From Asterella californica (lineage: Eukaryota > Streptophyta > Marchantiopsida > Marchantiales > Aytoniaceae), in contig JAYKYS010000018.1 in assembly GCA_036924285.1 (NCBI GenBank), positions 3,782,001 through 3,846,000 on the forward strand: a DNA stretch of 64,000 bases, written 5' to 3'. A program made the translations under genes and the position numbers. Of this stretch, positions 2,231-57,860 are shown piece after piece (position 1 is the stretch's first letter; every line of letters starts with the position of its first letter). The notes below the pieces were generated by a model that did not search any database, was not told the DNA's origin, and was given only the letters and a program-made list of their open reading frames with translations.

Positions 2231-2810
2231 ATATCTTGCCCCACGGCCTTGTACAGGGGACGCGGGGGCCAGGAAAAGACCATGAAAAATCCGCGACGGA
2301 CATTGGCTGTCACGGATTTAACGGTATCGTCGCGGTGTTTTCAAATTTTGGCCGTTGTCGTGCGAGTGTCATTAATATCACGAGTGAAGTTGTCGCCTCT
2401 GTCTTTGCGTCTTCGTCTTCACGTGGAGTTCTTTTTTCACGATGTGCGACGTGGCTTCTCATTTTCACGATTGGACGCTCGCTGTGACGATCGTTTGCTT
2501 TCGCTCGTGCTTCGTTGCTCGCTCTCCGCCATTGCTTCGTTCTTTCTTCTTGTATCTGTCTTTTCTTTCATTGTTTCGCTTCATTCTTGTCCGACGCGAT
2601 AGCAACCTATTGCATGTTTCCTTCGTTCCTGTGGACGGCCGGGATGGGACGACTGATATTGCCACTCCGCGACAAGGTTGTAGGTTACCTGGACTCACGC
2701 ATGGAACTCTGTCATGGAGCTGTGTGCTGTGCCGATCGTTTTCCACGGACAAATTGCGGCGATCACTCCAAGGAAGTTTCTTTCTTTCGCTTGCATTGCT
2801 CGTTTCGGTC

Positions 2811-4505
2811 ATGTCGCAACAAGGTTCTGCCAAATCCGAGGACGCTGACTCAGTTTCTTCTGCGGATGATGAAATTCTCGCCGATGATGATCTTCTTGTC
2901 TCTATTCCCGCTACCCCTCCACCTCAACTTGTTGCCGATATCGATTTGTCGTTTTGCTGCTTTGAGGCTGTTTTCTCTCACCGTTCTGATGTACTTTCAG
3001 CGTGTACTGTAGATCGCTTTCAAAGACCGGCTACTTTACCTCCTTCTCCTCTGTATTCTGGTACGCTGTTGTCATTCTTTGATCTTCATCTTTATAGGAA
3101 CAGATCCTACATATATCTAGATTTTCTTTTTGTGCGTGTTCCGCCTGAGTTCTTGCTCGATGGGTTCGATTATTGCCAAGTCATTTTGTGTATCGGCCAC
3201 TTGCCTCCAAGCCCTCGTTGGACCCTTCCACTATATCAACTCCGAAGGAGCTTGGATAACCTTACGCGACTGTAGATCCAGTTTCTTCTCTTATCCAAAG
3301 TTCTTTCAGTTTCTCATCGATCCGCATCTTCTGAAGCCCACAGTGGCTGCGGTCTTTCGCCTCAAGTGTGTTCATTGCATCTGTGAAGACGTAGATCCGA
3401 AACTGTTCAAGTTTGCTTGCAAGCACCATCCGTTTCTGAAGCATGCTGCTGAGAAGGGCAGCGAGGACCAACCGCGTCCCTGTCCCGCCTCTAGCGGCAG
3501 GGACGTGTCGAGTACCACTTCCCAAGCAGCTTGAAATCTCACTTACAGTTAACTGTACAGGTGCTGACCTTGACGTGGAGAAATGTTGGCTTGTTTTGTG
3601 TTCTTTTCTCCGCCATGAGTGCAGCTGTGGGCTCTTGTCCATTGAGAGAGGAGGTAGTCTTCTGCACTTGCATGTCCAGGGGGTGCTTTCGCTTCAGGCA
3701 ACTAGCACTCTCCAGGTGAAGCAACGCATTCTCACTGTTCTTGACTGGAGGGGAACCGATAGGCCGCCCGGAGGGGAAGTTTGTGTGAAACAATTAACAA
3801 ACAGAGGCCTCCATATCTTCGTGGATATGGTTGGCTACTGTATGAAAGACAAGGCTGAGGTGCACCATCAGTGCAGCATGAAGAACATCACTAACAGTAT
3901 GTTGGAAGACGGTGAAGAACTGCTTTTTCTCTTAGGTGCCGCAGATACGAAGAATAGAGTCGAACTCAATTACACCAACATCCTTCAGAGGGCCTTCCAG
4001 TTTAACAAATTCCGCAGCAGGCATCCACTGGGTACTACTCTAAGGACGTGCTTGAGGTCCATGATAAGGTCTGGTAAGTACACTCCTTCTTGTCGGTGGC
4101 TGATGGCGTATGATATTCAGAAGACACGTAGTGATTCCTTGTGGAAAGCAATTGTTCGGTCCGAAACCGTCACTATTGCAGATATTGATAATGTCTTCTT
4201 TGCACAAACTCGCGCCCGGTACTTTACTGTCGAACAATCTAAGTCTGACTTGCTGGATGAGGAGGAGTTCATTCTCGCAGCGTCATCTGCAACTCCCAGA
4301 TCCAGAACGGTGTCCAACTTTCAGGATGTGGACATGCTACCTGAATACATGCCAATCTGCAGCACGTTGGACCGCACCAGACTGCACGAAAGTAATCATT
4401 CGATTTTCTGACGGCTTTCTCTGTTAGTTTTAACGCTGTTTTCCTTGTTTTCATCATTCGTTGTCTTCTGCAGGCATGGCTGAAGTGCACCCGAGTCACA
4501 GTTGA
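2811..4505 (+). CDS. HUH endonuclease (Rep-like) gene of a probable rolling-circle transposon; spliced or broken
   Basis: The clearest part is the open frame 3443-4411. It has the three marks of a single-tyrosine HUH endonuclease in the right order: a hydrophobic strand with SLTVN (motif I-like), then H-L-H-V-Q-G (H75 and H77, codons 3665-3673) as metal-binding motif II, then G-Y-C-M-K-D (Y132 and K135, codons 3836-3847) as the nicking tyrosine motif III. HUH enzymes cut one DNA strand and stay bound to its 5' end through the tyrosine, starting rolling-circle replication or transposition. The HxQG/YxxK style resembles CRESS-type Rep proteins and the Reps of Replitron transposons. No helicase motif is visible. 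Upstream, plausible coding continues in two other frames: an acidic N terminus from ATG 2811 to about 3200, and about 3150-3534 with Cys/His pairs (CVHC ... CKHH) that could bind zinc. I cannot tell whether introns or frameshifts join these. The last intron (4392-4473) adds nine codons ending at TGA 4503-4505. Exact start and exon structure are uncertain. Confidence 0.62.
4392..4473 (+). other. Probable terminal intron of the HUH gene
   Basis: The donor is AA|GTAATC. The 3' end has a long T-rich tract ending TTCTGCAG, and a TTTTAAC-like branch site lies upstream. The length of 82 nt is normal for a plant intron. Without splicing the frame stops at 4411; with splicing it continues to TGA at 4503-4505. 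This is read from the sequence; no transcript is available. Confidence 0.5.
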
Positions 4506-4602
4506 TTACCGCGAGCGTGCCGTTCTCGAATATATCGTTACGACTAACTTCACAGCTCCACAGCTTACTTCACTGTACATGTGTGGAGCGATATGCTTAC
4601 AG

Positions 4603-4778
4603 CTTCTAGGTTCGGTTTTATGATAGCAGTACAGACTGGATTCAGATTCTAGCCAACACATGACAGGGACGGAGACTGTGTACATGTGTACAGCTTACAA
4701 CTTCTAGGTTCGGTTTTATGATAGCAGTAGAGATTGGATTGAGATTGTAGCGAACACGTTTATGAACGGAGAGTGTTA
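4603..4778 (+). repeat. Two diverged tandem copies, period 98 bp
   Basis: A block beginning CTTCTAGGTTCGGTTTTATG starts at 4603 and again at 4701. The copies continue with matching GATAGCAGTA, GATTGGATT-like and GAACAC-like stretches. The pair lies between the end of the HUH gene and the hairpin at 4786, so it may be subterminal sequence of that element. Confidence 0.65.
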
Positions 4779-4785
4779 ATGTTTC

Positions 4786-4846
4786 GCCTTATGACCTCAG
4801 GTATGCGCTCAGCAAACTTCTGAGCGCATACCTGAGGTGATAAGGC
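4786..4846. repeat. Long hairpin downstream of the HUH gene
   Basis: Perfect 18-bp arms lie at 4795-4812 and 4820-4837 (arm CCTCAGGTATGCGCTCAG) around a 7-nt loop, CAAACTT. The stem continues outward to 4786 and 4846 with one G/G mismatch, giving 27 pairs in all. Helitrons and other HUH elements often carry a hairpin near the 3' end, so this is a candidate terminus or nicking-site signal. It could instead be an inverted-repeat RNA precursor. Confidence 0.7.
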
Positions 4847-5450
4847 CACTTGTTCCTTGCCTTATGGCCTTGTACCTTCTGTTTTAGCAGTAGCAGTAGA
4901 CAGTGGAATGGGATTCTGACGAGCAGTATCTCATTGATGTCCATAGAGGACCATATGCAAAATGTGAGATTTACCCAAAAAAATAAAATTCTCCTGAGCT
5001 CCCCGAAGCCCTTTCCATTTTCCCAAACTGCTATCGTACGCAAAATTATTTAACAGAGGTGAATGCTTACGCCTTCGGAAAAAAATTATTTTTCCAAGTC
5101 GCGAACAGTGTTAAAAAACCGTTCAATTGTCAGCCGTTAGAGTAAGAGCGGAAAAGAAAACTCTTCATTTATTATAGCCCTCAGGAAGGCTACAATACAC
5201 ACAAAGCAGGAGGAAAATACAATATTTTCGATCCACGGGCCCTAACTTAGAACTCAAGTGTACATCTGGTTAATATACATAGCTATTATGGAAGCCATGG
5301 CTAAAACCTGAAGAGCGCTAGCTACTGTATATAGATAAACATTCAAATTTAATCTGGTTTTTATTCTTATCAAGTAAGAAGCCAGTTTTGACCGCAATGC
5401 TTTTATTTACACCTCTTTTCGCAGTGGGACGTTCTGCAACCGGACGCTGT

Positions 5451-41600: not shown

Positions 41601-42899
41601 TGTCGGAGTGTAATCCGTCTACCTAGGAAAGCGCCGGGCTTCTGGCTGTGGTTGTTCACTCAAGAGGTTGGCTTTCAGGTTACAACAGGGCTATAAACAC
41701 TCACACAGATGTGTAAGATCTAGTAATATACCCTGAAGGCGAAATTCAGGTCTAGCTGGCAGTAATAGGATCCGGCGGTGAACTTTGACACTCACGGAGA
41801 GGAAAACTATGAAGGTTTAGACCTCTAAACTTCCCCCTTTCTTGCTTTTCTGAGCAAGAAAACTACGGCAATTTCTGGTACCTAGATGGCTATTTCGACC
41901 TATAACAGGAGTTTGGCTCGATCAATTTCAAAGTTTCTTACAGGATTTGCAGTTCACAGCTTGCTGAACACTCCTGTGAAGTTGGGACTCCTGATTGTTT
42001 GTAGAACTCCAGATCTCCTTCCTTGAAGTCGCTGCTCTAGATTAAGAGCTTTTCAGACCCCCTCGGCTTCAGCGGCCGCCCTGAATTACTCAGTCACTCA
42101 ATCGATATGAAACTTTTTGTGAAATCGTAGCCCTGCTGGCGGAGAACACAACCTCGAAGTTTTGAAGCAATTTCCTCAAATCTGCTGCGAGTGACACTGA
42201 AAACCCTAAATCCAACCAAAATGATTCAATTCTAGCACAATCCGAACTTCAATTGCTCATAACTCCGTCTTTATTGACTCAAATCGATCGAAATTTTCAC
42301 TGGAAGTGCTTGGCATGACGAGCCCTCTCCCCCTATGTTCTCAGATTTCGAAGATCCCCCACCAAATGCTCGAACTCCACTCTAGAGCTCTGTTTCTAAA
42401 TTTAGAGTTTAACAAAAGACAAAAACAGACCAATGGGAGTTCATAGCTCCACTTGGTTGTCCTTTAGTACCCTAAACCACGTGGCAACTTAGTTTTACTC
42501 ATAGGCTACCACGTCAAGCTCCCTAGAGTGCCAACGTAAAACTTAAACTACCTAAAACGACACGCAGCCCCGAAAAATAACTTAAATCAGCTAGAAAGCG
42601 TGCATGGACGACAAGTAAGTATAACCCATGAGCTCAAACCCCTATCAGCATGGAAACCCTAAGTTATGTACATGGAACGTCATGGACAAGTAAGAAGTCA
42701 CTTGCACAAGCGCACAAATGCCTGAACAAGATAACTAACATACTATCAACCTACTATGACTCAAAATAGTGTTAACACCGTATGCAAAGGTGTCACACAT
42801 ATACATAAAGGACTAGAAGTAATATGAGCTAACTTCTAGAACTACTAAACCTAAGCGTCGGAGTAGAAGTCAAGCATGTAGCCGCCATGTAGCGCGACA
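41601..42899 (-). repeat. 3' LTR of element C
   Basis: On the minus strand it starts TGTCGCGCTACATGGCGG and ends ACTCCGACA, with the same ends and the same landmarks as the LTRs of B (1299 bp against 1373), but more diverged. The polypurine tract lies immediately before it. Confidence 0.85.
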
Positions 42900-42911
42900 T
42901 CCACCCCCTCT
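42900..42911 (-). other. Polypurine tract of element C
   Basis: AGAGGGGGTGGA on the minus strand directly precedes the 3' LTR and is identical to the tract of B at 51396-51407. It would prime plus-strand DNA synthesis. Confidence 0.75.
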
Positions 42912-42947
42912 GAACCTGCACATCCTCCGGTATGTGCCATATCCAGA

Positions 42948-44080
42948 TCAAGACTCTTCAGCTTCAGCTTCAAATTCATCTTCAACCTCCATTGAGTCTT
43001 CAGCTTCATCTTCAGTAAGCTCTGCAATGTTCTGGTCCTCCCCTCTCCTTCTAAAGAGCTTGATTCTCTTCCCTGCGACTGGTATCTTGAGCATTGCACC
43101 ATCTAACTCTCTCAAATAGTATGTGGCATTATCATAAACTTCTAACACCACATAAGGTCCGAACCATCTCTTGGAAAACTTTCTGATAGCGCTATGCTGA
43201 TTATCAAGACTACTATCATAGACTAACACCCAATCACCTTCTTTAACTGGTTTGGGTCGTAATCTATGCGTTCTATCAAATCTGCCTTTGTTTCTCTCTC
43301 TAGCAGCCTTTAACCTTTCCACAGCTTTGGCAACATCCTCAGGTCTTCGTTCTAACTGCTGGATCCTTAATGCAAGAAGATCCTCCGTACTTCTACCATC
43401 TTCCCATGGCAAAACATTCCAAGTAGGCACAACCTCCTCAATCGGCATCATAGGTTTTTGTCCTAGTATCAACTCTGCTGGCATGTAACCTGTAACGGTA
43501 CTATGAGTTGTACGATCTGCCCACAAAGCAAATGGTAGCAGTCTAGGCCATTCACGGATCTTACCCTTGCAAGCTTTTACCAAAGCTTTGATGATTGGCG
43601 GATGACCTCTTTCGCTCTTGCCATTCCCTTCAGGATTGTAAGCAGTGGTTAACGCCAACTTGATTCCCAATCGCTTGAAGAACTCAACTGCTTCTTGTGC
43701 ATCCAGCTCACCCCTATCTGCAGTGATCTTTCCCGCACACCCATATCTACAAATAACATCTTCAAGTAGAAAGCGGCAGACACTAACAGTGGTCTTCGTC
43801 CTCAGAGCACGGCCTTCGACTTGGTTAGATAGATCTTCTCTAGCCAAGACTAGATATCTCATTTGTCCAAGTCCAAATGGCATAGTTACCAGATCAACTA
43901 CCCATTTATAATGAATGGCTAAAGGATAAGTAGGATGCAATCCATCACGATGGCGTACGTTGGAATACATCTGCCAAGGTATACAGGATGAAACAAGCTG
44001 TACTACATCCTTATACATACCCTTCCACCAATACTTCTCCTTCATCTTGGCAAATGTAGCCCAAACTCCTCTATGACCGG
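42948..44080 (-). pseudogene. Integrase C-terminal two thirds of element C
   Basis: This continues C's pol after the B insertion. It reads without stops from the insertion point to the stop at 42948: the end of the HHCC region, the catalytic core (VVDLV, TADRGE, GKSERGH) and the C-terminal part with RWFGPYVV and GKRIKLF. In the zinc-binding motif the second Cys is replaced: SSCIPWQ where B has SSCISCQ. It is cut off from its 5' part and cannot be expressed as one protein. Confidence 0.9.
44077..44080. other. Left target duplication of element B (CCGG)
   Basis: CCGG before the 5' LTR corresponds to CCAG after the 3' LTR (52816-52819). Removing B and one copy restores the integrase reading of element C (WAG-HRG). 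One of the four bases has changed. Confidence 0.7.
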
Positions 44081-45453
44081 TGTCGCGTCATTTGACGGCT
44101 ACATGCTTGACTTCTACTCCGACGCTTAGGTTTAGTAGTTCTAGAAGTTAGCTCATATTACTTCTAGTCCTTTATGTATATGTTTGACACCTTTGCATAT
44201 GGTGTTAACACTATTTTGAGTCCTAGCAGGCTGATAGTATGTTAGTTGTCTTGTTCAAGCATTTGTGCGCTTGTGCAAGTGACTTCTTACTTGTCTATGA
44301 CGTTCAATGTACATAACTTAGGGTTTCCATGCTGATAGGGGTTTGAGCTCATGGGTTGTACCTACTTGTCGCCCATGCACGCTTTCTAGCTGATTTAAGT
44401 TATTTTTCGGGGCTACGTGTCGTTTTAGGTAGTTTAAGTATTACGCTGGCACTCTAGGGGGCTTGACGTGGTAGCCTATGAGTGTAGATAAGTTACCAGG
44501 TAGTTTAAGGCACAAAAGGACAGTCAAGTGGAGCTATGAACTCCCATTGGTCCATTTTTGTCTTTTGTAAAACTCTAAGTTTAGAAACAGAGCTCTAGAG
44601 GAGAGTTCGAGCAATTGGTGAGGTATCTTCGAAATCTGAGAACACAGGAAGAGAGAGCTCGTCGTGCCAAGCACTGTCAGTGAAATTTTTGCTCGATTTG
44701 GATCAATAAACAAGAAGTTATGCCCAATTGAAGTTCGGATTGTGCCAAAACTGCATCACTTTTGTTGATTTTGGGGTTTTCAGTGCCAATTGCAGCAGAA
44801 TTGAGGAAATCACTTCAAAACTTCGTGGTTGCGTTCACTGTCAGGAGGGCTACGACTGTCCAAAAAGTTTCAAATCATTTGATTAATTGAGTAATTCAGG
44901 GCGGCCGCTGAAGCAGAGGGGATCTGAAAAGCTCTTAATCTAGAGCAGCGACTTTAGAGAAGGAGATCTGGAGTTCTACAAACAATCAAGAGTCCCAACT
45001 TCACAGGGATGTTCAGCACCCTGTAGACTTCAAATACTGTGAGAAGATTTGAAATTCATCGAGCCAATTCTCTGTTCTATGTCTGAATAGCTATCTAGGT
45101 ACCAGAAATTGCCATAATTCTCTTATTCAGAACTTTTCTGTTCATATCTCCGTGTCAGAATTTGATCTCAGGTTGAAACTTCGTCTGTGAGTTCAGTAGT
45201 ACCTCATTTGCATGTAGGGGAAGTTTAGAAGTCTAAACCTTCATAGTTTTCCTCTCTTTGAGTGTGAAAGTTCACCGCTTAAACCTATTACTACTAGTTA
45301 AACCTAAATTTCGCTTTTTGAGCATATCAGAGGATCCTACACTCCTGTGTGAGTGTTTATAGCTCCTGCTGTGACCTGAAAGCCAACCTCTTGAGTAAAC
45401 AACCACAGCCAGAAGCCCGGCGCTTTCCTAGGTAGACGGATCACACTCCGACA
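44081..45453 (+). repeat. 5' LTR of element B
   Basis: It runs from TGTCGCGTCATTTGACGG to ACTCCGACA, 1373 bp, with TG...CA ends extended to a 5-bp inverted repeat TGTCG/CGACA. It should hold the promoter and polyadenylation signals. I could not place a convincing TATA box. Confidence 0.95.
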
Positions 45454-45463
45454 TACTCTCTTT

Positions 45464-45480
45464 TGGTGAACTCGACGTGA
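45464..45480 (+). promoter_or_regulatory. Candidate primer-binding site of element B
   Basis: TGGTGAACTCGACGTGA starts 10 nt after the LTR. A tRNA primer ends in CCA, so the site should begin TGG. I cannot name the tRNA. Confidence 0.4.
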
Positions 45481-45528
45481 AACACCTAGGGTGGGAGTTT
45501 TCTTGAGAGTGTTACAGGATCAGATATC

Positions 45529-47895
45529 ATGGCCAACCAAGGATCATCAAGTGGAGGTGCTGCTGCTGCTCAGCAACCTGCTCAGTTGGATGCTGCTACG
45601 ATGAAGATGTTCCAAGCTTTTTCCATGTTTATGCAGCAGCAGCAGAGCACAGAGAGGAAGGAGGTATTAGCAACCAAGGCGTTGCAATCTGTGGTGCATC
45701 AGATGGATCAGTTCAAGGGGACAGATATTTCCAAGTATGTGCGATACTATGCCAGGGAGATGGAGGTGAACAAGGTACCTGAGAAGGAGATGGTGGAGAA
45801 CTTTGAGCTTGCTGTTGTTCCTGAGATTCGTGGGCGTGTGAAGGAGCTCAAGCAGCAGCAAGGACAGAGTTGGGAGAGCTTTATGCGAGCTTTGAAGGAG
45901 GAGTACTACACTGAAGATTCAAAAAGGGTGACCAAGAGAACGTTCTTGGAGTGGGTGGTGAAGCTTAACAAAGGTTTGTCTGTAAATGAGTTGTTAAGGG
46001 AGTTTGATCGTCAATATGCTCAGCTTTCTAGGACAGAGAAGCTTACACTAGAGGTTGAGAAGACCGAGCTTTTCCTACAAGCAGCGGACGTGACTATTCA
46101 GGAGAAGCTTGAGCTGTTGCTGGAAGACAAGAGTGAGGAGAGAGGATTGAAGACTGACTGGAAGGAGGTTGAAGAGGCTGTTTCTTTGTTGACCAAGAGA
46201 CAGAGAAGAAGGGACAAGGTGGTGGTAAGTGCAGCAGCACCTCTGATAATTCCTGTCAAGCAGTTGCCTGCTAAGCCCGCTTTGGTAATTGCTAGAGAGG
46301 AAGACTCACCGCTTGATGAGTTGATTAAGGGTATGAAGGAGCTTAAGCTTAAGCTCACTAGGTTAGAAGAGAAGGAGCAGAATGTACAACCTGCTATGCA
46401 GAGACCTCAGATGAGAGAAAGCTTTGTTCATTGTTGTATATGGTGTGATAGCCTAGACCATGTAAGGAGAGACTGTGGAGAGTTTTTAGATGCATTGAGG
46501 AAGGATCTGATCTTCTTCAAAGATGGTAAGATCCATCTGAGAGAAACTGGGATGATGTTGGGAACCAACTTTGGCAAGGGTGGTATGAAGAGACTTGTGA
46601 ATGAAATATCAGCATCACATGCTGTTTCTCTTGTGAATGCTGCTACTTGTGGAGTGAAAGTGGAGATGGAGAGAGAGAAAGGGACTACTGGGTTGTGGTC
46701 TGATGTAGTGCGGTCCGTATCTAGAACAAAGCTAGATAAGGATGTGCTACGAAGGGTTGGCAACTCAATTAGAGAAACTACAGGATGGAATGACCCTGTG
46801 GATACTATGTCAGTGCATGCTTATGTTGCAAGAAGTCAGCATGAAGCTGTACTAGAAGAAAAACGCAGAAGGGAGGATGCAGGTGAAGCTTCTACAGCCA
46901 AACGACCTGCTACAAGGAGTGAAAGGGCTAGACCAGAGGCAAGGCAGGAGACAACACGGGAGGAGACTATGGAGGATCTACCACCTACAACACCAAAGGA
47001 GAAGGAGAGAAGCAAGGAGAAGGGTAAGATGCCTGCATACAAACTTCAGTCTGACATTGAGATTGCTACAGACTTGAAGCAGATGTTAGAGAATCGTATC
47101 TTGAATGGGAAGGTTGAGTTTACTCTGGGTGAGATTCTTGGGATTGCAAAGCGTGAGTTCCATGAGGTTATCATAGATATCATCAAGAGGAAACGTCAGA
47201 TTTTGGGTGAAGCAGCTACACTTAACGCTCTAGGGACCAAACTGTCGGAAGATGAGGAAGATGAGATTGCTGGTTATTGTTCTCAAGTATCAGAGGAAAG
47301 ATCAGATCAGCACGTGAGGTTTGAAGATGAGGTGGAAGCATCGCAGAAGAGCCATTACTCTCACAACCATTGGGCAAGAGCAACCACAGAGACCTTGGTG
47401 AAGTTGGGAGATCTGGAGGAACCTGTGGTGGCATTGATTGATCATGGCTCAGAGATTAATCTGATGTCTAAGGAGCTGTACAAGCGTGGGAGGTGGCCCA
47501 TAGACACCGACCATGGATGGCTTATCCGTGCTGCCAACAACCAGAGGGGAGAACTGTATGGTGCTTGTCCCAACATCAAGGTAACTGTGGGTGACATCAG
47601 TGATGTTCAGAATTTCTTTGTGCAAGACATGTCAACCTATCCTATCATTCTAGGGCAGCCTTACATTACTGCTGTTAGAATGGAGACACGAGTTATGGAT
47701 GATGGTTCAGCTTATGCTAGGATACGTAGTAGAGATGGCAAAAGAGCTGTTCAGTTTTTGACCGTTGCTGCAGAACATGAGAGGAATCGTGATAGCTTGA
47801 GAGACCGTCCACTACCTAAGATTACTCAAGAGTTTAGAGAGTCTAGGGGTTTTGGCAGAGTACCATTGAAGAGCGAGACTTCAACGGTACAGTAG
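45529..47895 (+). CDS. gag: Gag-protease of element B
   Basis: 788 codons from an ATG 75 nt after the LTR. After a Gln-rich start there is a capsid-like helical region (about residues 45-235; KYVRYYAREMEVNKVPE, FELAVVPEIRGRV). A CCHC knuckle CIWCDSLDHVRRDC (303-316) for RNA binding follows, then a charged linker rich in Glu, Arg and Lys, and finally a retropepsin-like aspartic protease. Its active site reads ALIDHGSEINLMS with D638-H639-G640 where D-T/S-G is usual; the later ILGQPYITA matches the second conserved retropepsin motif. Gag forms the particle and the protease cuts the polyprotein. The frame ends at TAG 47893-47895, and pol continues in the -1 frame from the slippery run at 47847. 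Confidence 0.95.
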   Translation: MANQGSSSGGAAAAQQPAQLDAATMKMFQAFSMFMQQQQSTERKEVLATKALQSVVHQMDQFKGTDISKYVRYYAREMEVNKVPEKEMVENFELAVVPEIRGRVKELKQQQGQSWESFMRALKEEYYTEDSKRVTKRTFLEWVVKLNKGLSVNELLREFDRQYAQLSRTEKLTLEVEKTELFLQAADVTIQEKLELLLEDKSEERGLKTDWKEVEEAVSLLTKRQRRRDKVVVSAAAPLIIPVKQLPAKPALVIAREEDSPLDELIKGMKELKLKLTRLEEKEQNVQPAMQRPQMRESFVHCCIWCDSLDHVRRDCGEFLDALRKDLIFFKDGKIHLRETGMMLGTNFGKGGMKRLVNEISASHAVSLVNAATCGVKVEMEREKGTTGLWSDVVRSVSRTKLDKDVLRRVGNSIRETTGWNDPVDTMSVHAYVARSQHEAVLEEKRRREDAGEASTAKRPATRSERARPEARQETTREETMEDLPPTTPKEKERSKEKGKMPAYKLQSDIEIATDLKQMLENRILNGKVEFTLGEILGIAKREFHEVIIDIIKRKRQILGEAATLNALGTKLSEDEEDEIAGYCSQVSEERSDQHVRFEDEVEASQKSHYSHNHWARATTETLVKLGDLEEPVVALIDHGSEINLMSKELYKRGRWPIDTDHGWLIRAANNQRGELYGACPNIKVTVGDISDVQNFFVQDMSTYPIILGQPYITAVRMETRVMDDGSAYARIRSRDGKRAVQFLTVAAEHERNRDSLRDRPLPKITQEFRESRGFGRVPLKSETSTVQ
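47847..47853 (+). promoter_or_regulatory. -1 ribosomal frameshift heptamer, GGGTTTT
   Basis: In the gag frame the codons read AGG GGT TTT, that is G GGT TTT, which fits the X XXY YYZ rule for -1 slippage. The pol frame has a TAG at 47844-47846, so it opens exactly at this heptamer, and gag stops 42 nt later. The same heptamer is kept in element C (55193-55199, minus). Confidence 0.7.
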
Positions 47896-50800
47896 AGCTA
47901 GGATTCTCGCCTGATCCAATAGAGCAGGAAGCTTTATCCACTGGCTTCTTGGGACAGACATCATGTGGATCAGTGTGTTATAGGAAGGTTGAGAATCTGA
48001 AGAGGTTTGAGAGGCAACATGTGAAGTATGTACATCAGTCTTTGAGAGATAGTGGAGAGTTAGCAGGAGATGAATACATATCTGGAGTGTTTGAAGAGCA
48101 GTATTTGGTAGATACTATAGGGGAGTTGAAATCTATAGTAGAAAGTTCTATAGATGATGTAGATAGAGTGGTGAGAGTGAGCTCCAAGGAGCTTTATGAT
48201 GTAATTGATAAGTTTATAGATCGGCAAGAGGTGTATGTGGAGACCAAGTACAAGTCAGTGGCAAAGAAAGTCAAACCAGTGGCTTTGCCTTTACCACTTG
48301 ATTACAATCAGAAGATGGAGCAAGCTGCACGAGAACCGACGCTCAGAGGACCGAGAAGAATTGGGCACCAGTTCACAGAAACAACACTGAAGGAGCTGAG
48401 GATTGGAGGTGATGGATTTCTTACCGAGCAAGAGAAGAAGAGCTTCAGGGAGATGCTATCTAGGCATGGTAAGGCGTTTGCATTTGAGTCACATGAAGTA
48501 GGATGTGTAGATCCAAGTGTAGTTGCACCTATGGTAATCTTTACTATACCGCATGTGCCTTGGAATCTACGTCCTATCCTTGTGCCTAGAGCTCATCTGC
48601 CAAAGCTGATAGACTTGCTCAATGAGAGGATTAGGATGGGTATCTTGGAACCATCTATAGCTCCCTATTCTAGCAGATGGTTTACTGTTCCGAAGAAGAG
48701 TGGAGCTTTGAGATTCATTCAAGATATGCAGCCAGTTAACAAGGTGACTATCAGGAATATGGGTATAGGACCTATTGTAGACGAGTTTGCAGAGGCTTTT
48801 GCTGGTCGTGCTATCTATTCAATGGGAGACTTATATTCAGGTTACGATCAATTTCAGTTATCCTCTGAGAGTAGAGACTTGACTACAATGAGGACACCTT
48901 TGGGGTTACTAAGGATGTGCACCTTGCCACAAGGTGCTACCAATTCTGTAGCACATATGATGAATGGCATGAATAAAGTTTTGAGGGATTTCATTCCTGA
49001 AAAAACTATGCCATTCCTTGATGATGTGCCGATCAAAGGGTGTGCTGAGGAGGAGAAGAATGAGGTAATGGATCAGAGGGGGTGCCGTAAGTTTGTTGCA
49101 GATCACATAGCTGACTGTGATAAGATATTGAGTCGACTGGAAGAGGTTCATTTGACTTTATCAGGAGCCAAGTCTGTGTTTGGAGTACAAGAGGTGTTAA
49201 TAGTGGGACATCTGTGTGGATCTTATGGTCGGAAACCTTGTCCAAACAAGGTTGATGTCATCCGAAGGATGAAGGAGACATGTGGATCGGTTACTGAGGT
49301 GAGAAGGTTTCTAGGAGCATGTGTGTTTTATCATATATGGATTCCACACTTTGCACATGTAGCAGATCCGTTGTACAAGTTGCTGAGGAAGGGACAAAGA
49401 TTTCAGTGGCAAGAGGAGCAAAGCGAGTCTATGAGGAAGTTGAAGGATCTTTTGGCTTCACCACCAACTCTACGAAAGGTAACATATGAGTTGGGGAGAT
49501 CTGTTATCCTTACTGTTGATACTAGTCCTATTGGCATTGGATGGGCTGTAGGGCAAGACGATGAGGATGGAAATAGATATGTGGTGCGTTTTGGAGCTAA
49601 GGTGTTAAGTTCACGGCAGAGAGACTACCCTCAAGTAAAAAGAGAGCTATGGGGAGTAGTTACTGCGATGAAGAGTGACAAGGAATACTTGATAGGAGCA
49701 CCTGTGGTTGTGGAGACAGATTGTTTACCTCTCTTGGGAATGATCACTAGCTGTACAACTCCAGATATTGCTATGTTGAGGTGGATAGCATATATCAAGT
49801 CCTTGAACCCAAAGTTTAGACATATTGCAGGAAAAGACAATCCTGTGGCAGATATGTTATCAAGGGCTAGGTATTATGATGAGAAGGAAATGATAGATGA
49901 CCAGGAGGATGTTGGAACAGAGTTCTATTCTAGTGCTCTTGCTAGAAGAGATAGAAGCTGTTTTGCAGCCTCGTTGGAGTTTTTTGAGGAAACTATGTAT
50001 GATGGCGAGTGGTTGGATCTTGGACGCTATTTGAGTTCACTGGAAAGGCAAGAAGACTGGTCTGATGCAGATTTCAAGAGGATCCGTAGAATAGCTTATG
50101 GTTACTTTTTACATGGAGGACATCTATGGAAACGCCCTAAGCTACAAGGAGGTATACCGCAGCGGGTGGTATGTGACTTGGAATTGCAGCAGAAGCTGAT
50201 CAAAGAGTTCCATGAGAGTTTATGGGCCGGTCATAGAGGAGTTTGGGCTACATTTGCCAAGATGAAGGAAAAGTATTGGTGGAAGGGTATGTATAAGGGG
50301 GTAGTACAGTTTGTTTCATCCTGTATATCCTGCCAGATGTATTCCAACGTACGTCATCGTGATGGATTGCATCCTACTTATCCTTTAGCTATCCATTACA
50401 AATGGGTAGTTGATCTGGTAACTATGCCATTTGGACTTGGACAAATGAGGTATCTAGTCTTGGCTAGAGAAGATCTATCTAACCAAGTCGAAGGCCGTGC
50501 TCTGAGGACGAAGACCACTGCTAGTGTCTGCCGCTTTCTACTTGAAGATGTTATTTGTAGGTATGGGTGTGTGGGAAAGATCACTGCAGATAGGGGTGAG
50601 TTGGATGCACAAGAAGCAGTTGAGTTCTTCAAGCGATTGGGAATCAAGTTGGCGTTAACCACTGCTTACAATCCTGAAGGGAATGGCAAGAGCGAAAGAG
50701 GTCATCCGCCAATCATCAAAGCTTTGGTAAAAGCTTGCAAGGGTAAGATCCGTGAATGGCCTAGACTGCTACCATTTGCTTTATGGGCAGATCGTACAAC

Positions 50801-51359
50801 TCATAGTACCGTTACAGGTTACATGCCAGCAGAGTTGATACTAGGACAAAAACCTGTGATGCCGATTGAGGAGGTTGTGCCTACTTGGAATGTTTTGCCA
50901 TGGGAAGATGGTAGAAGTACGGAGGATCTTCTTGCATTAAGGATCCAGCAGTTAGAACGAAGACCTGAGGATGTTGCCAAAGCTGTGGAAAGGTTAAAGA
51001 CTGCTAGAGAGAGAAACAAAGGCAGACTTGATAGAACGCATAGATTACGACCCAAACCAGTTAAGGAATGTGATTGGGTGTTAGTCTATGATAGTAGTCT
51101 TGATAATCAGCATAGCGCTATCAGAAAGTTTTCCAAGAGATGGTTCGGACCTTATGTCGTGTTAGAAGTTTATGATAATGCCACATACTCTTTGAGAGAG
51201 TTAGATGGTGTAGTGCTCAAGATACCAGTCGCAGGGAAGAGAATCAAGCTCTTTAGAAGAAGAGGAGAGGACCAGAACATTGCAGAACTTACTGAGGATG
51301 AAGCTGAAGACTCAATGGAGGTTGAAGATGAATTTGAAGCTGAAGCTGAAGGGTCTTGA
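47847..51359 (+). CDS. pol: Pol polyprotein of element B (RT, RNase H, integrase), reached by frameshift
   Basis: The frame is open from 47847 to the TGA ending at 51359 (1170 codons); no ATG is needed if it is made as a gag-pol fusion. Numbered from codon 47949, a linker (1-185) is followed by RT with YSSRWFTVPKKSGALRF, DLYSGYDQFQL, TLPQGATNS and the catalytic FLDD (356-359). RNase H follows with VDTSPIGIGWA (Asp524), KRELWG, ETDCLPLLG and ADMLSRA. Integrase then shows its HHCC zinc site (H-x6-H ... SSCISCQ), the core with VVDLV (about 820), TADRGE (about 880) and GKSERGH (about 916), and a C-terminal part with RWFGPY (GPY/F module) and GKRIKLF. No chromodomain is seen. The acidic tail is Glu-rich. 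Copying (RT, RNase H) and insertion (integrase) of the element depend on it. Intact. Confidence 0.95.
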   Translation, partial: GFWQSTIEERDFNGTVELGFSPDPIEQEALSTGFLGQTSCGSVCYRKVENLKRFERQHVKYVHQSLRDSGELAGDEYISGVFEEQYLVDTIGELKSIVESSIDDVDRVVRVSSKELYDVIDKFIDRQEVYVETKYKSVAKKVKPVALPLPLDYNQKMEQAAREPTLRGPRRIGHQFTETTLKELRIGGDGFLTEQEKKSFREMLSRHGKAFAFESHEVGCVDPSVVAPMVIFTIPHVPWNLRPILVPRAHLPKLIDLLNERIRMGILEPSIAPYSSRWFTVPKKSGALRFIQDMQPVNKVTIRNMGIGPIVDEFAEAFAGRAIYSMGDLYSGYDQFQLSSESRDLTTMRTPLGLLRMCTLPQGATNSVAHMMNGMNKVLRDFIPEKTMPFLDDVPIKGCAEEEKNEVMDQRGCRKFVADHIADCDKILSRLEEVHLTLSGAKSVFGVQEVLIVGHLCGSYGRKPCPNKVDVIRRMKETCGSVTEVRRFLGACVFYHIWIPHFAHVADPLYKLLRKGQRFQWQEEQSESMRKLKDLLASPPTLRKVTYELGRSVILTVDTSPIGIGWAVGQDDEDGNRYVVRFGAKVLSSRQRDYPQVKRELWGVVTAMKSDKEYLIGAPVVVETDCLPLLGMITSCTTPDIAMLRWIAYIKSLNPKFRHIAGKDNPVADMLSRARYYDEKEMIDDQEDVGTEFYSSALARRDRSCFAASLEFFEETMYDGEWLDLGRYLSSLERQEDWSDADFKRIRRIAYGYFLHGGHLWKRPKLQGGIPQRVVCDLELQQKLIKEFHESLWAGHRGVWATFAKMKEKYWWKGMYKGVVQFVSSCISCQMYSNVRHRDGLHPTYPLAIHYKWVVDLVTMPFGLGQMRYLVLAREDLSNQVEGRALRTKTTASVCRFLLEDVICRYGCVGKITADRGELDAQEAVEFFKRLGIKLALTTAYNPEGNGKSERGHPPIIKALVKACKGKIREWPRLLPFALWADRTTHSTVTGYMPAELILGQKPVMPIEEVVPTWNVLPWEDGRSTEDLLALRIQQLERRPEDVAKAVERLKTARERNKGRLDRTHRLRPKPVKECDWVLVYDSSLDNQHSAIRKFSKRWFGPYVVLEVYDNATYSLRELDGVVLKIPVAGKRIKLFRRRGEDQNIAELTEDEAEDSMEVEDEFEAEAEGS

Positions 51360-51395
51360 TCTGGATTTGGCACATACCGGAGGATGTGCAGGTTC

Positions 51396-51407
51396 AGAGG
51401 GGGTGGA
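51396..51407 (+). other. Polypurine tract of element B
   Basis: AGAGGGGGTGGA ends at the base before the 3' LTR. Confidence 0.8.
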
Positions 51408-52815
51408 TGTCGCGCCATTTGACGGCTACATGCTTGACTTCTACTCCGACGCTTAGGTTTAGTAGTTCTAGAAGTTAGCTCATATTACTTCTAGTCCTTT
51501 ATGTATATGTTTGACACCTTTGCATATGGTGTTAACACTATTTTGAGTCCTAGCAGGCTGATAGTATGTTAGTTGTCTTGTTCAAGCATTTGTGCGCTTG
51601 TGCAAGTGACTTCTTACTTGTCTATGACGTTCAATGTACATAACTTAGGGTTTCCATGCTGATAGGGGTTGGGTTTAGGGTTTAGGGTTTAGGGTTTAAA
51701 CCCTAATTGCTCATGGGTTGTACCTACTTGTCGCCCATGCACGCTTTCTAGCTGATTTAAGTTATTTTTCGGGGCTACGTGTCGTTTTAGGTAGTTTAAG
51801 TATTACGCTGGCACTCTAGGGGGCTTGACGTGGTAGCCTATGAGTGTAGATAAGTTACCAGGTAGTTTAAGGCACAAAAGGACGGTCAAGTGGAGCTATG
51901 AACTCCCATTGGTCCATTTTTGTCTTTTGTAAAACTCTAAGTTTAGAAACAGAGCTCTAGAGGAGAGTTCGAGCAATTGGTGAGGTATCTTCGAAATCTG
52001 AGAACACAGGAAGAGAGAGCTCGTCGTGCCAAGCACTGTCAGTGAAATTTTTGCTCGATTTGGATCAATAAACAAGAAGTTATGCCCAATTGAAGTTCGG
52101 ATTGTGCCAAAACTGCATCACTTTTGTTGATTTTGGGGTTTTCAGTGCCAATTGCAGCAGAATTGAGGAAATCACTTCAAAACTTCGTGGTTGCGTTCAC
52201 TGTCAGGAGGGCTACGACTGTCCAAAAAGTTTCAAATCATTTGATTAATTGAGTAATTCAGGGCGGCCGCTGAAGCAGAGGGGGTCTGAAAAGCTCTTAA
52301 TCTAGAGCAGCGACTTTAGAGAAGGAGATCTGGAGTTCTACAAACAATCAAGAGTCCCAACTTCACAGGGATGTTCAGCACCCTGTAGACTTCAAATACT
52401 GTGAGAAGATTTGAAATTCATCGAGCCAATTCTCTGTTCTATGTCTGAATAGCTATCTAGGTACCAGAAATTGCCATAATTCTCTTATTCAGAACTTTTC
52501 TGTTCATATCTCCGTGTCAGAATTTGATCTCAGGTTGAAACTTCGTCTGTGAGTTCAGTAGTACCTCATTTGCATGTAGGGGAAGTTTAGAAGTCTAAAC
52601 CTTCATAGTTTTCCTCTCTTTGAGTGTGAAAGTTCACCGCTTAAACCTATTACTACTAGTTAAACCTAAATTTCGCTTTTTGAGCATATCAGAGGATCCT
52701 ACACTCCTGTGTGAGTGTTTATAGCTCCTGCTGTGACCTGAAAGCCAACCTCTTGAGTAAACAACCACAGCCAGAAGCCCGGCGCTTTCCTAGGTAGACG
52801 GATCACACTCCGACA
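51408..52815 (+). repeat. 3' LTR of element B
   Basis: 1408 bp, TGTCGCGCC... to ...ACTCCGACA. By eye it differs from the 5' LTR by about three substitutions and by a telomere-repeat insert near 51671-51706. Confidence 0.95.
51671..51706 (+). repeat. Telomere-repeat insert with inverted junction in the 3' LTR
   Basis: About three and a half TTTAGGG units run forward and meet one inverted unit (CCCTAA) at a palindromic GGGTTTAAACCC (51692-51703). The 5' LTR has instead TTTGAG at this place (44345-44350), so the insert (net 35 bp) came after integration. TTTAGGG is the usual plant telomere unit. Confidence 0.9.
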
Positions 52816-52819
52816 CCAG
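52816..52819. other. Right target duplication of element B (CCAG)
   Basis: The partner of CCGG at 44077-44080; one mismatch. A duplication of 4 bp fits a Ty3/gypsy insertion. Confidence 0.7.
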
Positions 52820-55199
52820 CCCATAGACTCTCATGAAACTCCTTGATCAGCTTCTGCTGCAATTCCAGGTCACATATCACCCGCTGTGGTACACCTCCTT
52901 GTAGCTTAGGGCGCTTCCATAGATGTCCTCCATGTAAAAAGTACCCATAAGCTATTCTACGGATCCTCTTGAAATCTGCATCAGACCAGCCTTCTTGCCT
53001 TTCCAGTGAACTCAAATAGCGCCCAAGATCCAACCACTCGCCATCATACATAGTTTCCTCAAATAACTCCAATGGAGCTGCAAAACAGCTTCCATCCTTT
53101 CTAGCAAGAGCACTAGAATAGAACTCAGGTCCCACATCCTCCTGATCATCTATCATTTCCTTCTCATCGTAATACCTAGCCCTTGATAACATATCTGTCA
53201 CAGGATTGTCTTTTCCTGCAATATGTCTAAACTCTGGGTTCAAGGACTTGATATATGCTATCCACCTCAACATAGCAAGGTCTGGAGTTGTACAGCTAGT
53301 AATCATTCCCAAGAGAGGTAAACAATCTGTCTCCACAACCACAGGTGCTCCTATCAAGTATTCCTTGTCACTCTTCATCGTAGTAACTACTCCCCATAGC
53401 TCTCTCTTGACATGAGGGTAGTCTCTCTGCCGTGAACTTAATACCTTAGCACCAAAACGCACCACATATCTATTCCCATCCTCATCGTCTTGCCCTACAG
53501 CCCATCCAATGCCAATAGGACTAGTATCAACAGTAAGGATAACAGATCTCCCCAACTCATATGTTACCTTCCGTAGAGTTGGTGGTGAAGCCAAAAGATC
53601 TTTCAACTTCTTCATAGACTCGCTTTGCTCCTCTTGCCACTGAAATCTTTGCCCCTTCCTCAGCAACTTGTACAACGGATCTGCTACATGTGCAAAGTGT
53701 GGAATCCATATATGATAAAACACACATGCACCTAGAAATCTTCTCACCTCAGTAACCGATCCACACGTCTTCTTCATTCTTCGAATGGCATCAACCTTGT
53801 TTGGACAAGGTTTCCGACCATAAGATCCACAAAGGTGCCCCACTATTAACACCTCCTGTTCTCCAAATACAGACTTTGCTCCTGATAAAGTCAAATGAAC
53901 CTCCTCCAGTCGACTCAGTATCTTATCACAGTCAGCTATGTGATCTGCAACAAACTTACGGCACCCCCTCTGATCCATTACCTCATTCTTCTCCTCCTCA
54001 GCACATCCTTTGATCGGCACATCATCAAGGAATGGCATAGTTTTTTCAGGAATGAAGTCCCTCAAAACTTTGTTCATGCCATTCATCATATGTGCTACAG
54101 AATTGGTAGCACCTTGTGGCAAGGTGCACATCCTTAGTAACCCCAAAGGCGTCCTCATTGTAGTCAAGTCTCTACTTTCAGAGGATAACTGAAACTGATC
54201 ATACCCTGAATATAAGTCTCCCATTGAATAGATAGCACGACCAGCAAAAGCCTCTGCAAACTCGTCTACAATAGGTCCTATACCCATATTCCTGATAGTC
54301 ACCTTGTTAACTGGTTGCATATCTTGGATGAATCTCAAAGCTCCACTCTTCTTCGGAACAGTAAACCATCTGCTAGAGTAGGGAGCTATAGATGGTTCCA
54401 AGATACCCATCCTAATCCTCTCATTGAGCAAGTCTATCAGCTTTGGTAGATGAGCTCTAGGTACAGGGATAGGACGTAGATTCCAAGGCACATGCGGTAT
54501 AGTAAAGATTACCATAGGTGCAACTACACTTGGATCTACACATCCTACTTCATGTGACTCAAACGCAAACGCCTTACCATGCCTAGATAGCATCTCCCTG
54601 AAGCTCTTCTTCTCTTGCTCAGTAAGAAATCCATCACCTCCAATCCTCAGCTCCTTCAGTGTTGTTTCTGTGAACTGGTGCCCAATTCTTCTCGGTCCTT
54701 TGAGCGTCGGTTCTCGTGCAGCTTGCTCCATCTTCTGATTGTAGTCGGGTGGTAAAGACAAAGCCACTGGTTTGACTTTCTTTGCCACTGACTTGTACTT
54801 GGTCTCCACATACACCTCTTGTCGATCTATAAACTTATCAATTACATCATAAAGCTCCTTGGAGCTCACTCTCACCACTCTATCTACATCATCTATAGAA
54901 CTTTCTACTATAGACTTCAACTCCCCTATGGTATCTATCAAATACTGCTCTTCAAACACTCCAGATATGTATTCATCTTTGGCTAACTCTCCACTATCCC
55001 ACAAAGACTGCTGTACATACTTCACATGTTGTCTCTCAAACCTCTTCAGATTTTCAACCTTCCTATAACACACTGATCCACATGATGTCAGTCCTAAGAA
55101 GCCAGTGGATAAAGCTTCCTGCTCTATTGGATCAGGCGAGAATCCTAGCTCTACTGTACCGTTGAAGTCTCGCTCTTCAATGGTACTCTGCCAAAACCC
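52816..55199 (-). pseudogene. Pol 5' part of element C (linker, RT, RNase H, start of integrase)
   Basis: The reading frame is open from the frameshift heptamer (55199-55193) to the B insertion point. It carries the same motifs as B: YSSRWFTVPKKSGALRF, FLDD, VDTSPIGIGWA, ETDCLPLLG and the first His of the integrase zinc site. It ends ...HESLWAG, after which three codons of B's LTR (VGV) and a stop follow. Differences from B are scattered single residues. It is not decayed but cut, so C was probably still intact when B arrived. Confidence 0.92.
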
Positions 55200-55734
55200 C
55201 TAGACTCTCTAAACTCTTGAGTAATCTTAGGCAGTGGACGGTCTCTCAAGCTATCACGATTCCTCTCATGTTCTGCAGCAACGGTCAAAAACTGAACAGC
55301 TCTTTTGCCGTCTCTACTACGTATCCTAGCATAGGTTGAACCATCATCCATAACTCGTGTCTCCATTCTAACAGCAGTAATGTAAGGCTGCCCTAGAATG
55401 ATAGGATAGGTTGACATGTCTTGCACAAAGAAATTTTGAACATCACTGATGTCACCCACAGTTACCTTGATGTTGGGGCAAGCACCATAGAGTTCTCCTC
55501 GCTGATTGTTGGCAGCACGAATAAGCCATCCATGGTCAGTGTCTATGGACCATCTCCCACGCTTGTACAGCTCCTTAGACATCAGATTAATCTCTGAGCC
55601 ATGATCAATCAACGCCACCACAGGTTCCTCTAGATCTCCCAGCTTCACTAAGGTCTCTGTGGTTGCTCTTGCCCAATGGTTGTGAGAGTAATGGCTCTTT
55701 TGTGATGCTTCCACCTCATCTTCAAACCTCACGT
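55151..55734 (-). pseudogene. Protease part of gag of element C, cut by element D
   Basis: From the D junction at 55734/55735 the minus strand reads NVRFEDEVEASQKSHYSHNH and on through ALIDHGSEINLMS (the D-H-G protease site), ILGQPYITA and ESRGFGRVP to the stop at 55151. This is almost the same as the C-terminal 190 residues of B's gag. The codons before it belong to D's LTR. The rest of this gene is expected on the far side of D. Confidence 0.9.
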
Positions 55735-56227
55735 TGTCGTGTTGTACATGGGTCTGTACAATGAAAACTAGTTGCAAAGAGATCTTTTCTTTGTTGTGTA
55801 AAGGAAGCTGCCCTGCAGCTTAACAAGCTAGGCTGGAGCTAAGCTGGGGCCATGCTTGACAAGCTGCCCCCTAGCTTGGGTTGGAGTATCACCCCTAAGG
55901 GAGTCGAAAGACACCAGGATGTAAAGCACGACGAGGAGAGCGACCTCATGCTTCTAGTTTTGACAGAAAGTGTTTTAAGCAATAATTAGTACGAGTTTTA
56001 GGCTGTGAAATATGTGAAAGAGGGAATTCCGTCGATTCTGGCTCGAGACTCGAACTCAGAATCTGATAGCGTGGGTGTGTAGGTGTTCCTGAATACTATA
56101 GTTTTGACTCCTTGTTCATTAAAAACGGAGTTGTATAGAAGAGTTTGCACAGAAAAGGTTAGTAAAGACTTTGCAGGAAGATTTCTACAGTAAAAGCATA
56201 TGTACAAAGTTTAAATCCTTTTAGAAC

Positions 56228-57744: not shown

Positions 57745-57860
57745 CTATCACAGTCAGGAGGTCCGCCCTCCCCAAGAAAGACTCTCGCCACGACATCTGG
57801 TGCTTCCACTGAGAGCAATTGGGGTGATTGATTGGAGAATTGACTAGATTGAGAGAGAAA

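Follow-up and report, generated by a model that had tools for sequence, protein, structure and literature searches.

Overlapping reading frames, ATAT ends and short derivatives in a Replitron family of the liverwort Asterella californica

We report the analysis of a stretch of 64,000 nucleotides from the liverwort Asterella californica (assembly GCA_036924285.1, contig JAYKYS010000018.1, positions 3,782,001 to 3,846,000 of the forward strand), referred to here as the window and numbered from its first letter. Near its beginning lies an element of about 3.05 kilobases (kb) that belongs to the Replitrons, a group of transposons reportedly described by Craig in PNAS in 2023, and that carries two overlapping open reading frames (ORFs), ORF1 and ORF2; these and chance frames are its longest ORFs. 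Its features, all on the plus strand, are as follows.

2231..5276, plus: Replitron element, from its 5' ATAT to its 3' ATAT, placed by copy comparison, end motif and a drop in conservation after about 5282
2231..2255, plus: 5' terminal motif ATATCTTGCCCCACGGCCTTGTACA, which fits the pattern ATATCCTTCCCCACGGCCTTGTACA with 2 mismatches
2811..3534, plus: ORF1, probable accessory protein, recognised by codon-position counts
3367..3429, plus: Cys/His cluster of ORF1 (CVHCIC ... CKHH), a possible zinc site
3443..3534, plus: overlap of ORF1 and ORF2, 92 nucleotides in different frames, placed from the reading frames of the copies
3443..4411, plus: ORF2, Replitron HUH transposase of 322 amino acids, recognised by Pfam, codon-position counts and its conserved ATG
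3671..3679, plus: metal motif H77-x-Q79 of ORF2
3836..3838, plus: catalytic tyrosine Y132 (GYCMKD) of ORF2
4595..4757, plus: two direct repeat units of 65 nucleotides, 91% alike, in the 3' noncoding part
4786..4846, plus: conserved internal hairpin, supported by conservation, pairing and the genome count of one arm
4982..5027, plus: conserved island starting AATAAA, a possible polyadenylation signal (conservation 0.85-0.91 over 4983-5027)
5258..5276, plus: 3' terminal motif GTGTACATCTGGTTA-ATAT, aligned with the 3' ends of other copies; a related pattern is CTGTACATNNGGTGAATATCC

ORF2 is a Replitron transposase. The initial annotation had recognised an HUH endonuclease and a candidate Replitron-like transposon, and this holds good: residues 45-157 match the Pfam family Replitron_HUH (PF21859) with 45 bits (expectation value, E, 1.7e-11) against a cut-off of 28.5, and the homologues are themselves Replitron proteins. 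A search of 5.8 billion proteins yielded five relatives of ORF2, all from Riccia sorocarpa (E 1.9e-66 to 1.8e-36, identity at most 49%), and a profile search, in which the 7,995 candidates with most words in common were scored, returned 25 proteins, made up of 18 from R. sorocarpa, two from R. fluitans, one from the fern Adiantum capillus-veneris and four others; the nearest relatives that bear a name come from Riccia and are annotated as Replitron HUH endonuclease. The predicted fold of ORF2 aligns best, over approximately residues 26-163, with single-tyrosine CRESS Rep domains, namely the nuclease domains of circoviruses and nanoviruses, while the ORF2 sequence hit none of the solved structures at E up to 1. 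No helicase family appears among the Pfam matches of ORF2 and two pieces of ORF1 at E up to 1, in keeping with the earlier remark that a helicase motif, as found in Helitrons, is absent.

The gene is one of many. Its DNA matches at least 45 pieces of the 517-megabase assembly, the window's own included, the others being 78-92% identical; this is a lower bound, for which the best 40 of 612 candidates were scored. Thirty-nine stretches were fetched with their flanks (L009-L047) and make up, together with the window, the 40 copies compared here. The coding alignment holds 34 of these. L046 was set aside because it probably duplicates L045, and L011, L036, L042, L043 and L044 because their continuous match was too short; the rows of the alignment are not independent, some being close relatives (L028, L030 and L032, for example). 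For 20 of the 40 copies both ends could be located, and the conservation profile is based on 18. The 6-kb stretches of L045 (C207:16290658-16296663) and L046 (16094249-16100254) match end to end with equal gene scores and are probably one duplicated segment.

The frame of ORF2 contains LHLHVQG and, later, GYCMKD, which had been taken at the outset for the metal-binding motif and the site of the single tyrosine. We examined both in the 34 genomic rows and in a set of 22 proteins, namely that of the window with 21 of the 25 profile hits (P0020, P0021, P0022 and P0024 were omitted). H77 and Q79 are invariant among the 22 proteins and are kept in 32 of 33 and 32 of 34 genomic rows, respectively, whereas position 75 is H in only five of the proteins, N in four and Q in 13, though it is H in all 33 genomic rows that have a residue there. 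On these alignments the metal motif of the family is H-x-Q, with H75 outside the conserved core beyond this genome, so that only the second histidine and the glutamine of the motif as originally read are retained. The tyrosine was identified correctly: Y132 is present in 34/34 genomic rows and in 19 of the 22 proteins, the remaining three having gaps, and it is followed by K135 (33/34 rows) and D136 (34/34). We read the product as a single-tyrosine HUH nuclease, which would nick DNA and transfer the strand. Candidate intron signals follow the HUH region (GT at 4392, CAG ending at 4473), making an intron at 4392-4473 possible from the letters. The block at 4457-4494, which includes the possible 3' splice site, has a second copy further downstream in L015 (89%) and L022 (92%).

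Comparison of the copies recovered the ends of the element at 2231 and 5276; the extent of 2811-4846 proposed initially lies within the element, which is larger on both sides. Five distinct copies (L009, L010, L012, L017 and L033) first become similar to the window at 2231, and the 3' end was fixed by copy-to-copy comparison plus the motif, conservation being 0.87 at 5253-5267 and below 0.3 from 5313 onward. The 20 copies with both ends placed measure 2.8-3.5 kb. ATAT stands at both ends in 17 of them, the exceptions being L026, L029 (3' side) and L038 (5' side), and ATATC or a longer match in 13. The target was tallied in these same 20 long copies, which were located via their gene, and may be read beside the base composition of the window (A 0.289, C 0.201, G 0.215, T 0.295): the 5' flank has A at -1 in 18 and T at -3 in 15, and the three letters after the 3' ATAT are C in 15, C in 16 and T in 14. 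The 3' end of the element itself reads T or C, any base, A or C before its ATAT, and the 5' end is mostly ATAT-C-(C/T)-T. Taken together, the flank preferences and the letters of the element ends imply that the target and the joined 3' and 5' ends are alike in form, TNA-ATAT-CCT. The ATAT at both ends could be a target duplication.

Some copies lie at the ends of resident elements. The start of L030 coincides with the 3' end of a second element, whose final ~518 nucleotides can be aligned to the 3' portion of L031; L028 begins, as judged by eye, at the apparent 3' end of a short element; and in L049 the 3' end is followed, across a single ATAT, by sequence resembling the initial 18 nucleotides of a 5' end. 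Such insertions fit a nickase that uses one type of site for both ends and for the target. In L032, the ~80 nucleotides of 5' flank adjoining the insertion are part of a repeat present at many places.

The ends are far more numerous than the gene. The 5' pattern ATATCCTTCCCCACGGCCTTGTACA, with at most 3 mismatches, occurs at 1013+1050 = 2,063 places (control 0+0) and the 3' pattern CTGTACATNNGGTGAATATCC at 683 (control 11); from the 2,063 5' ends set against at least 45 gene pieces, it is probable that most carriers of the ends lack genes and that short gene-less derivatives dominate. Nineteen stretches around 3' ends were read, chosen by CTGTACATNNGGTGAATATCC, which has CC after ATAT (one set also by a nearby 5' end), and stretches chosen in this way are uninformative on the 3' flank preference or on the frequency of short elements. 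They include 17 elements with both ends measured (5 + 12), which at 197-511 base pairs (bp) are too short for either gene. Judged by eye, 7/8 and 7/12 of the 3' ends in two sets carry a second arm, which completes a palindrome like CATGTACACTT...AAGTGTACATG immediately ahead of TGA-ATAT; this left arm is absent from the long copies inspected. At L052 (1321-1700) and L066 (85-783) two short elements stand in the same order, with 16 nucleotides from the 3' ATAT of one to the 5' ATAT of the next and with equal flank before each short element, and these loci look like copies of one pair.

The second coding frame, ORF1, is open across its full length in several copies, such as L028 and L023, and is broken in the window by a frameshift near 3172, being read in the frame of 2811 before this point and in that of 3130 after it. 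Its ATG is kept in 29 of the 34 rows and its TGA in all of them; the ATG of ORF2, which lies inside ORF1, is likewise unchanged in 34/34. Deviation from the most frequent base over the 34 rows, given in turn for codon positions 1, 2 and 3, is 0.077, 0.067 and 0.216 in ORF2, 0.088, 0.070 and 0.224 in the C part of ORF1, and 0.176, 0.132 and 0.228 in its N part, compared with 0.302, 0.253 and 0.273 just upstream. This third-position excess indicates that both frames evolved under protein-level selection, the N part of ORF1 less strictly. The initial annotation had placed a possible zinc-binding stretch before the HUH gene; the Cys/His stretch at ~3367-3429 is real but belongs to this second ORF, in another frame. 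Its residues are conserved among the rows (C3367 32/33, H3373 32/33, C3376 32/34, C3382 33/34, C3418 33/33, H3424 32/32, H3427 29/33), from which pattern ORF1 probably binds zinc. Simple leaky scanning from the start of the element to ORF2 is unlikely in the window, with six ATGs between 2231 and the ATG of ORF1 and six more before that of ORF2.

We consider with good confidence that the window holds a decayed copy of an autonomous Replitron, in which a single-tyrosine nickase would use sites of the form TNA-ATAT-CCT, with ORF1 as an accessory and derivatives moved in trans. The copy itself is ordinary and damaged: its nearest relative is only ~91-92% identical, so that no recent activity is visible. 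A stop stands at codon 234 in 9/34 genomic rows. Movement would be of the rolling-circle kind. The ORF2 product would most probably recognise stretches containing TGTACA next to both ends, the putative binding sites; Y132 would nick the 5' junction, at a site matching TNA-ATAT-CCT; the strand would be displaced by the host replication machinery, the element being without a helicase; and a second cut would fall at the 3' ATAT. The freed strand, a single-stranded or perhaps circular intermediate, would be joined to an ATAT-CCT target, which would thus gain the body and one ATAT with every insertion. ORF1 would supply an accessory, probably zinc-binding protein from the overlapping frame, and short elements that keep these ends but no genes would be mobilised in trans. 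Several observations weigh against this reading. The patterns used for picking ends demanded ATAT-like letters, and the ATAT is partly so by construction, although the sharp loss of similarity at the element ends is independent of them. In the window copy the two ends have no more than the 4 bp of ATAT in common, and the flanking letters, ATC in front and ACA behind, match the target form poorly. No empty site was found among 18 joined flank pairs, for which the best 40 of 927 and of 1,942 candidates, many of them repeats, were scored, a result that says little. The Pfam match of ORF2 residues 203-253 to Replitron_C (PF21860) is weak (20.6 bits, E 5.9e-4, below the cut-off of 27), and Foldseek on its own produced no hit at an E threshold of 0.001.

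How the two frames are used is more evenly balanced. ORF1 and ORF2 may form one protein, joined by an intron or a frameshift, and we give this close to an even chance. Gene models from Riccia fuse an ORF1-like N-terminal domain to the HUH domain, as in P0013, and the likeness of that domain to ORF1 is weak, with a best tblastn E of 8.1e-5 (L024) and of 0.032 at the window locus among 40 loci; in the structure model of P0013 the predicted local distance difference test (pLDDT) score is below 70 over the N-terminal domain. Within the overlap, moreover, the ORF1 frame gives departures of 0.184, 0.168 and 0.080 with no third-position excess, which leaves the last ~29 residues of ORF1 without visible selection. 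The ORF1 of L028, searched as a protein in its own right, recovered no relative at an E threshold of 0.001; the 306 candidates were limited to 0.55-1.75 times its length, which excludes long fusions. Against a single protein stand the invariant ATG of ORF2 and TGA of ORF1, which support the use of both signals but fall short of proof, because ~13% of third positions are invariant anyway (36/285 and 11/85). The alternative of a two-gene Replitron, in which a zinc-type accessory protein is made from the frame overlapping by 92 nucleotides and the transposase cuts one composite site, TNA-ATAT-CCT, at both element ends and in the target, we put forward tentatively. If it is true, the junction of the ends would equal the target, which would explain both the insertion at resident ends and the spread of very short derivatives. 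That the locus is instead an endogenised Rep gene of a CRESS-DNA virus or plasmid, and no transposon, is very improbable: the H-x-Q and YxxK motifs and the fold nearest to circovirus and nanovirus Rep domains would suit such an origin, but the best family match is Replitron_HUH, the superfamily 3 helicase expected in a Rep has no counterpart in the Pfam scan, and the common ends and target preference of many copies already contradict it.

The hairpin raises a separate question. The duplicated unit and the strong hairpin that had been noted 3' of the gene are both confirmed, the units lying at 4595-4659 and 4693-4757, 98 nucleotides apart, and the hairpin being an inverted repeat (4786-4812 and 4820-4846) with 27-nucleotide arms, 96% complementary, around a 7-nucleotide loop; it proves to be internal, however, ~430 nucleotides before the 3' end of the element, between ORF2 and the AATAAA island. 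Stem-loops that act as origins or recognition sites are known from CRESS viruses, IS200/IS605 and the 3' ends of Helitrons, and this hairpin might likewise be an origin of replication or recognition on which cleavage depends. It is strongly conserved (0.86-0.95 over 4788-4847), and on 19 rows, counted without L035 and without L030 (the letters of which are here those of L028), 81.5% of cells are paired, compared with 21-42% when the arms are slid, with a covariation score of 0.117 that none of 500 shuffles reached. We nevertheless judge such a role improbable. Only five pairs are changed on both sides, a number reached by 205/500 shuffles; the hairpin was matched in just 21 of the 40 copies, in L035 by one arm only; and one arm with the loop occurs at 54 places in the genome (control 0), against 683 3' ends and 2,063 5' ends, so that most end carriers seem to be without it. 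Mismatches of both kinds are present in the stem and do not decide between an RNA and a DNA strand preference. From its position, and from the much smaller number of hairpins than of ends, it may rather act at the level of the transcript, as a signal of the autonomous copies, and a function in the mRNA is at least as likely as one in transposition.

The sections of a review considered here (PMC10741241) report Replitrons from land plants already, in liverworts, mosses, lycophytes and ferns, and describe them as 0.9-4 kb long, with no terminal inverted repeats, 5-11 bp direct terminal repeats and 2-8 bp target duplications. The present family agrees in its HUH domain family, in having no helicase match and no terminal inverted repeat seen, in its length of ~3 kb and in its occurrence in a non-seed plant, and differs, as far as Pfam and those sections allow comparison, in its overlapping second ORF, its conserved internal hairpin and its very short derivatives. 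The Replitron proteins of R. sorocarpa and R. fluitans (P0002-P0016 and others) are 29-50% identical over the matched parts and carry the same motifs, although what their gene models fuse to the HUH domain is here a separate frame. With the Rep of circoviruses and nanoviruses the element shares the nuclease fold, H-x-Q and a single tyrosine with K three residues on, but it has transposon ends and many genomic copies, and no helicase match. Helitrons are HUH nuclease transposons of plants that lack terminal inverted repeats and encode a Rep-helicase protein. The window family resembles them in its HUH nuclease, in the lack of terminal inverted repeats and, in some short derivatives, in a hairpin before the 3' end, so far as the comparison extends, and departs from them in its one tyrosine, ATAT ends, TNA-ATAT-CCT target and want of a helicase match.

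Elsewhere in the window, 41848-55819 contains long retroelement-like frames (for example, 47847-51359 on the plus and 52803-55199 on the minus strand) in inverted and direct copies, with repeats of 47312-50231 against 55734-52815 at 96% and of 44347-45453 against 51709-52815 at 99.8%; by appearance these are nested or inverted long terminal repeat (LTR) elements. An open frame of 872 amino acids within 57828-60446 looks by eye like a Gag-type polyprotein from the same kind of element.

The element is a member of a large family within the known Replitrons, and its ORF pair, target rule and short derivatives deserve the attention of specialists. Our search of the literature on Replitrons, HUH transposons and liverworts found little on the mechanism of Replitrons. 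The family described here gives clear ends, a target preference, insertion at resident ends and a conserved partner ORF, while its short derivatives hint at the smallest sequence needed in cis; it thereby offers concrete substrates for the question of how a single-tyrosine nickase without a helicase moves eukaryotic DNA.
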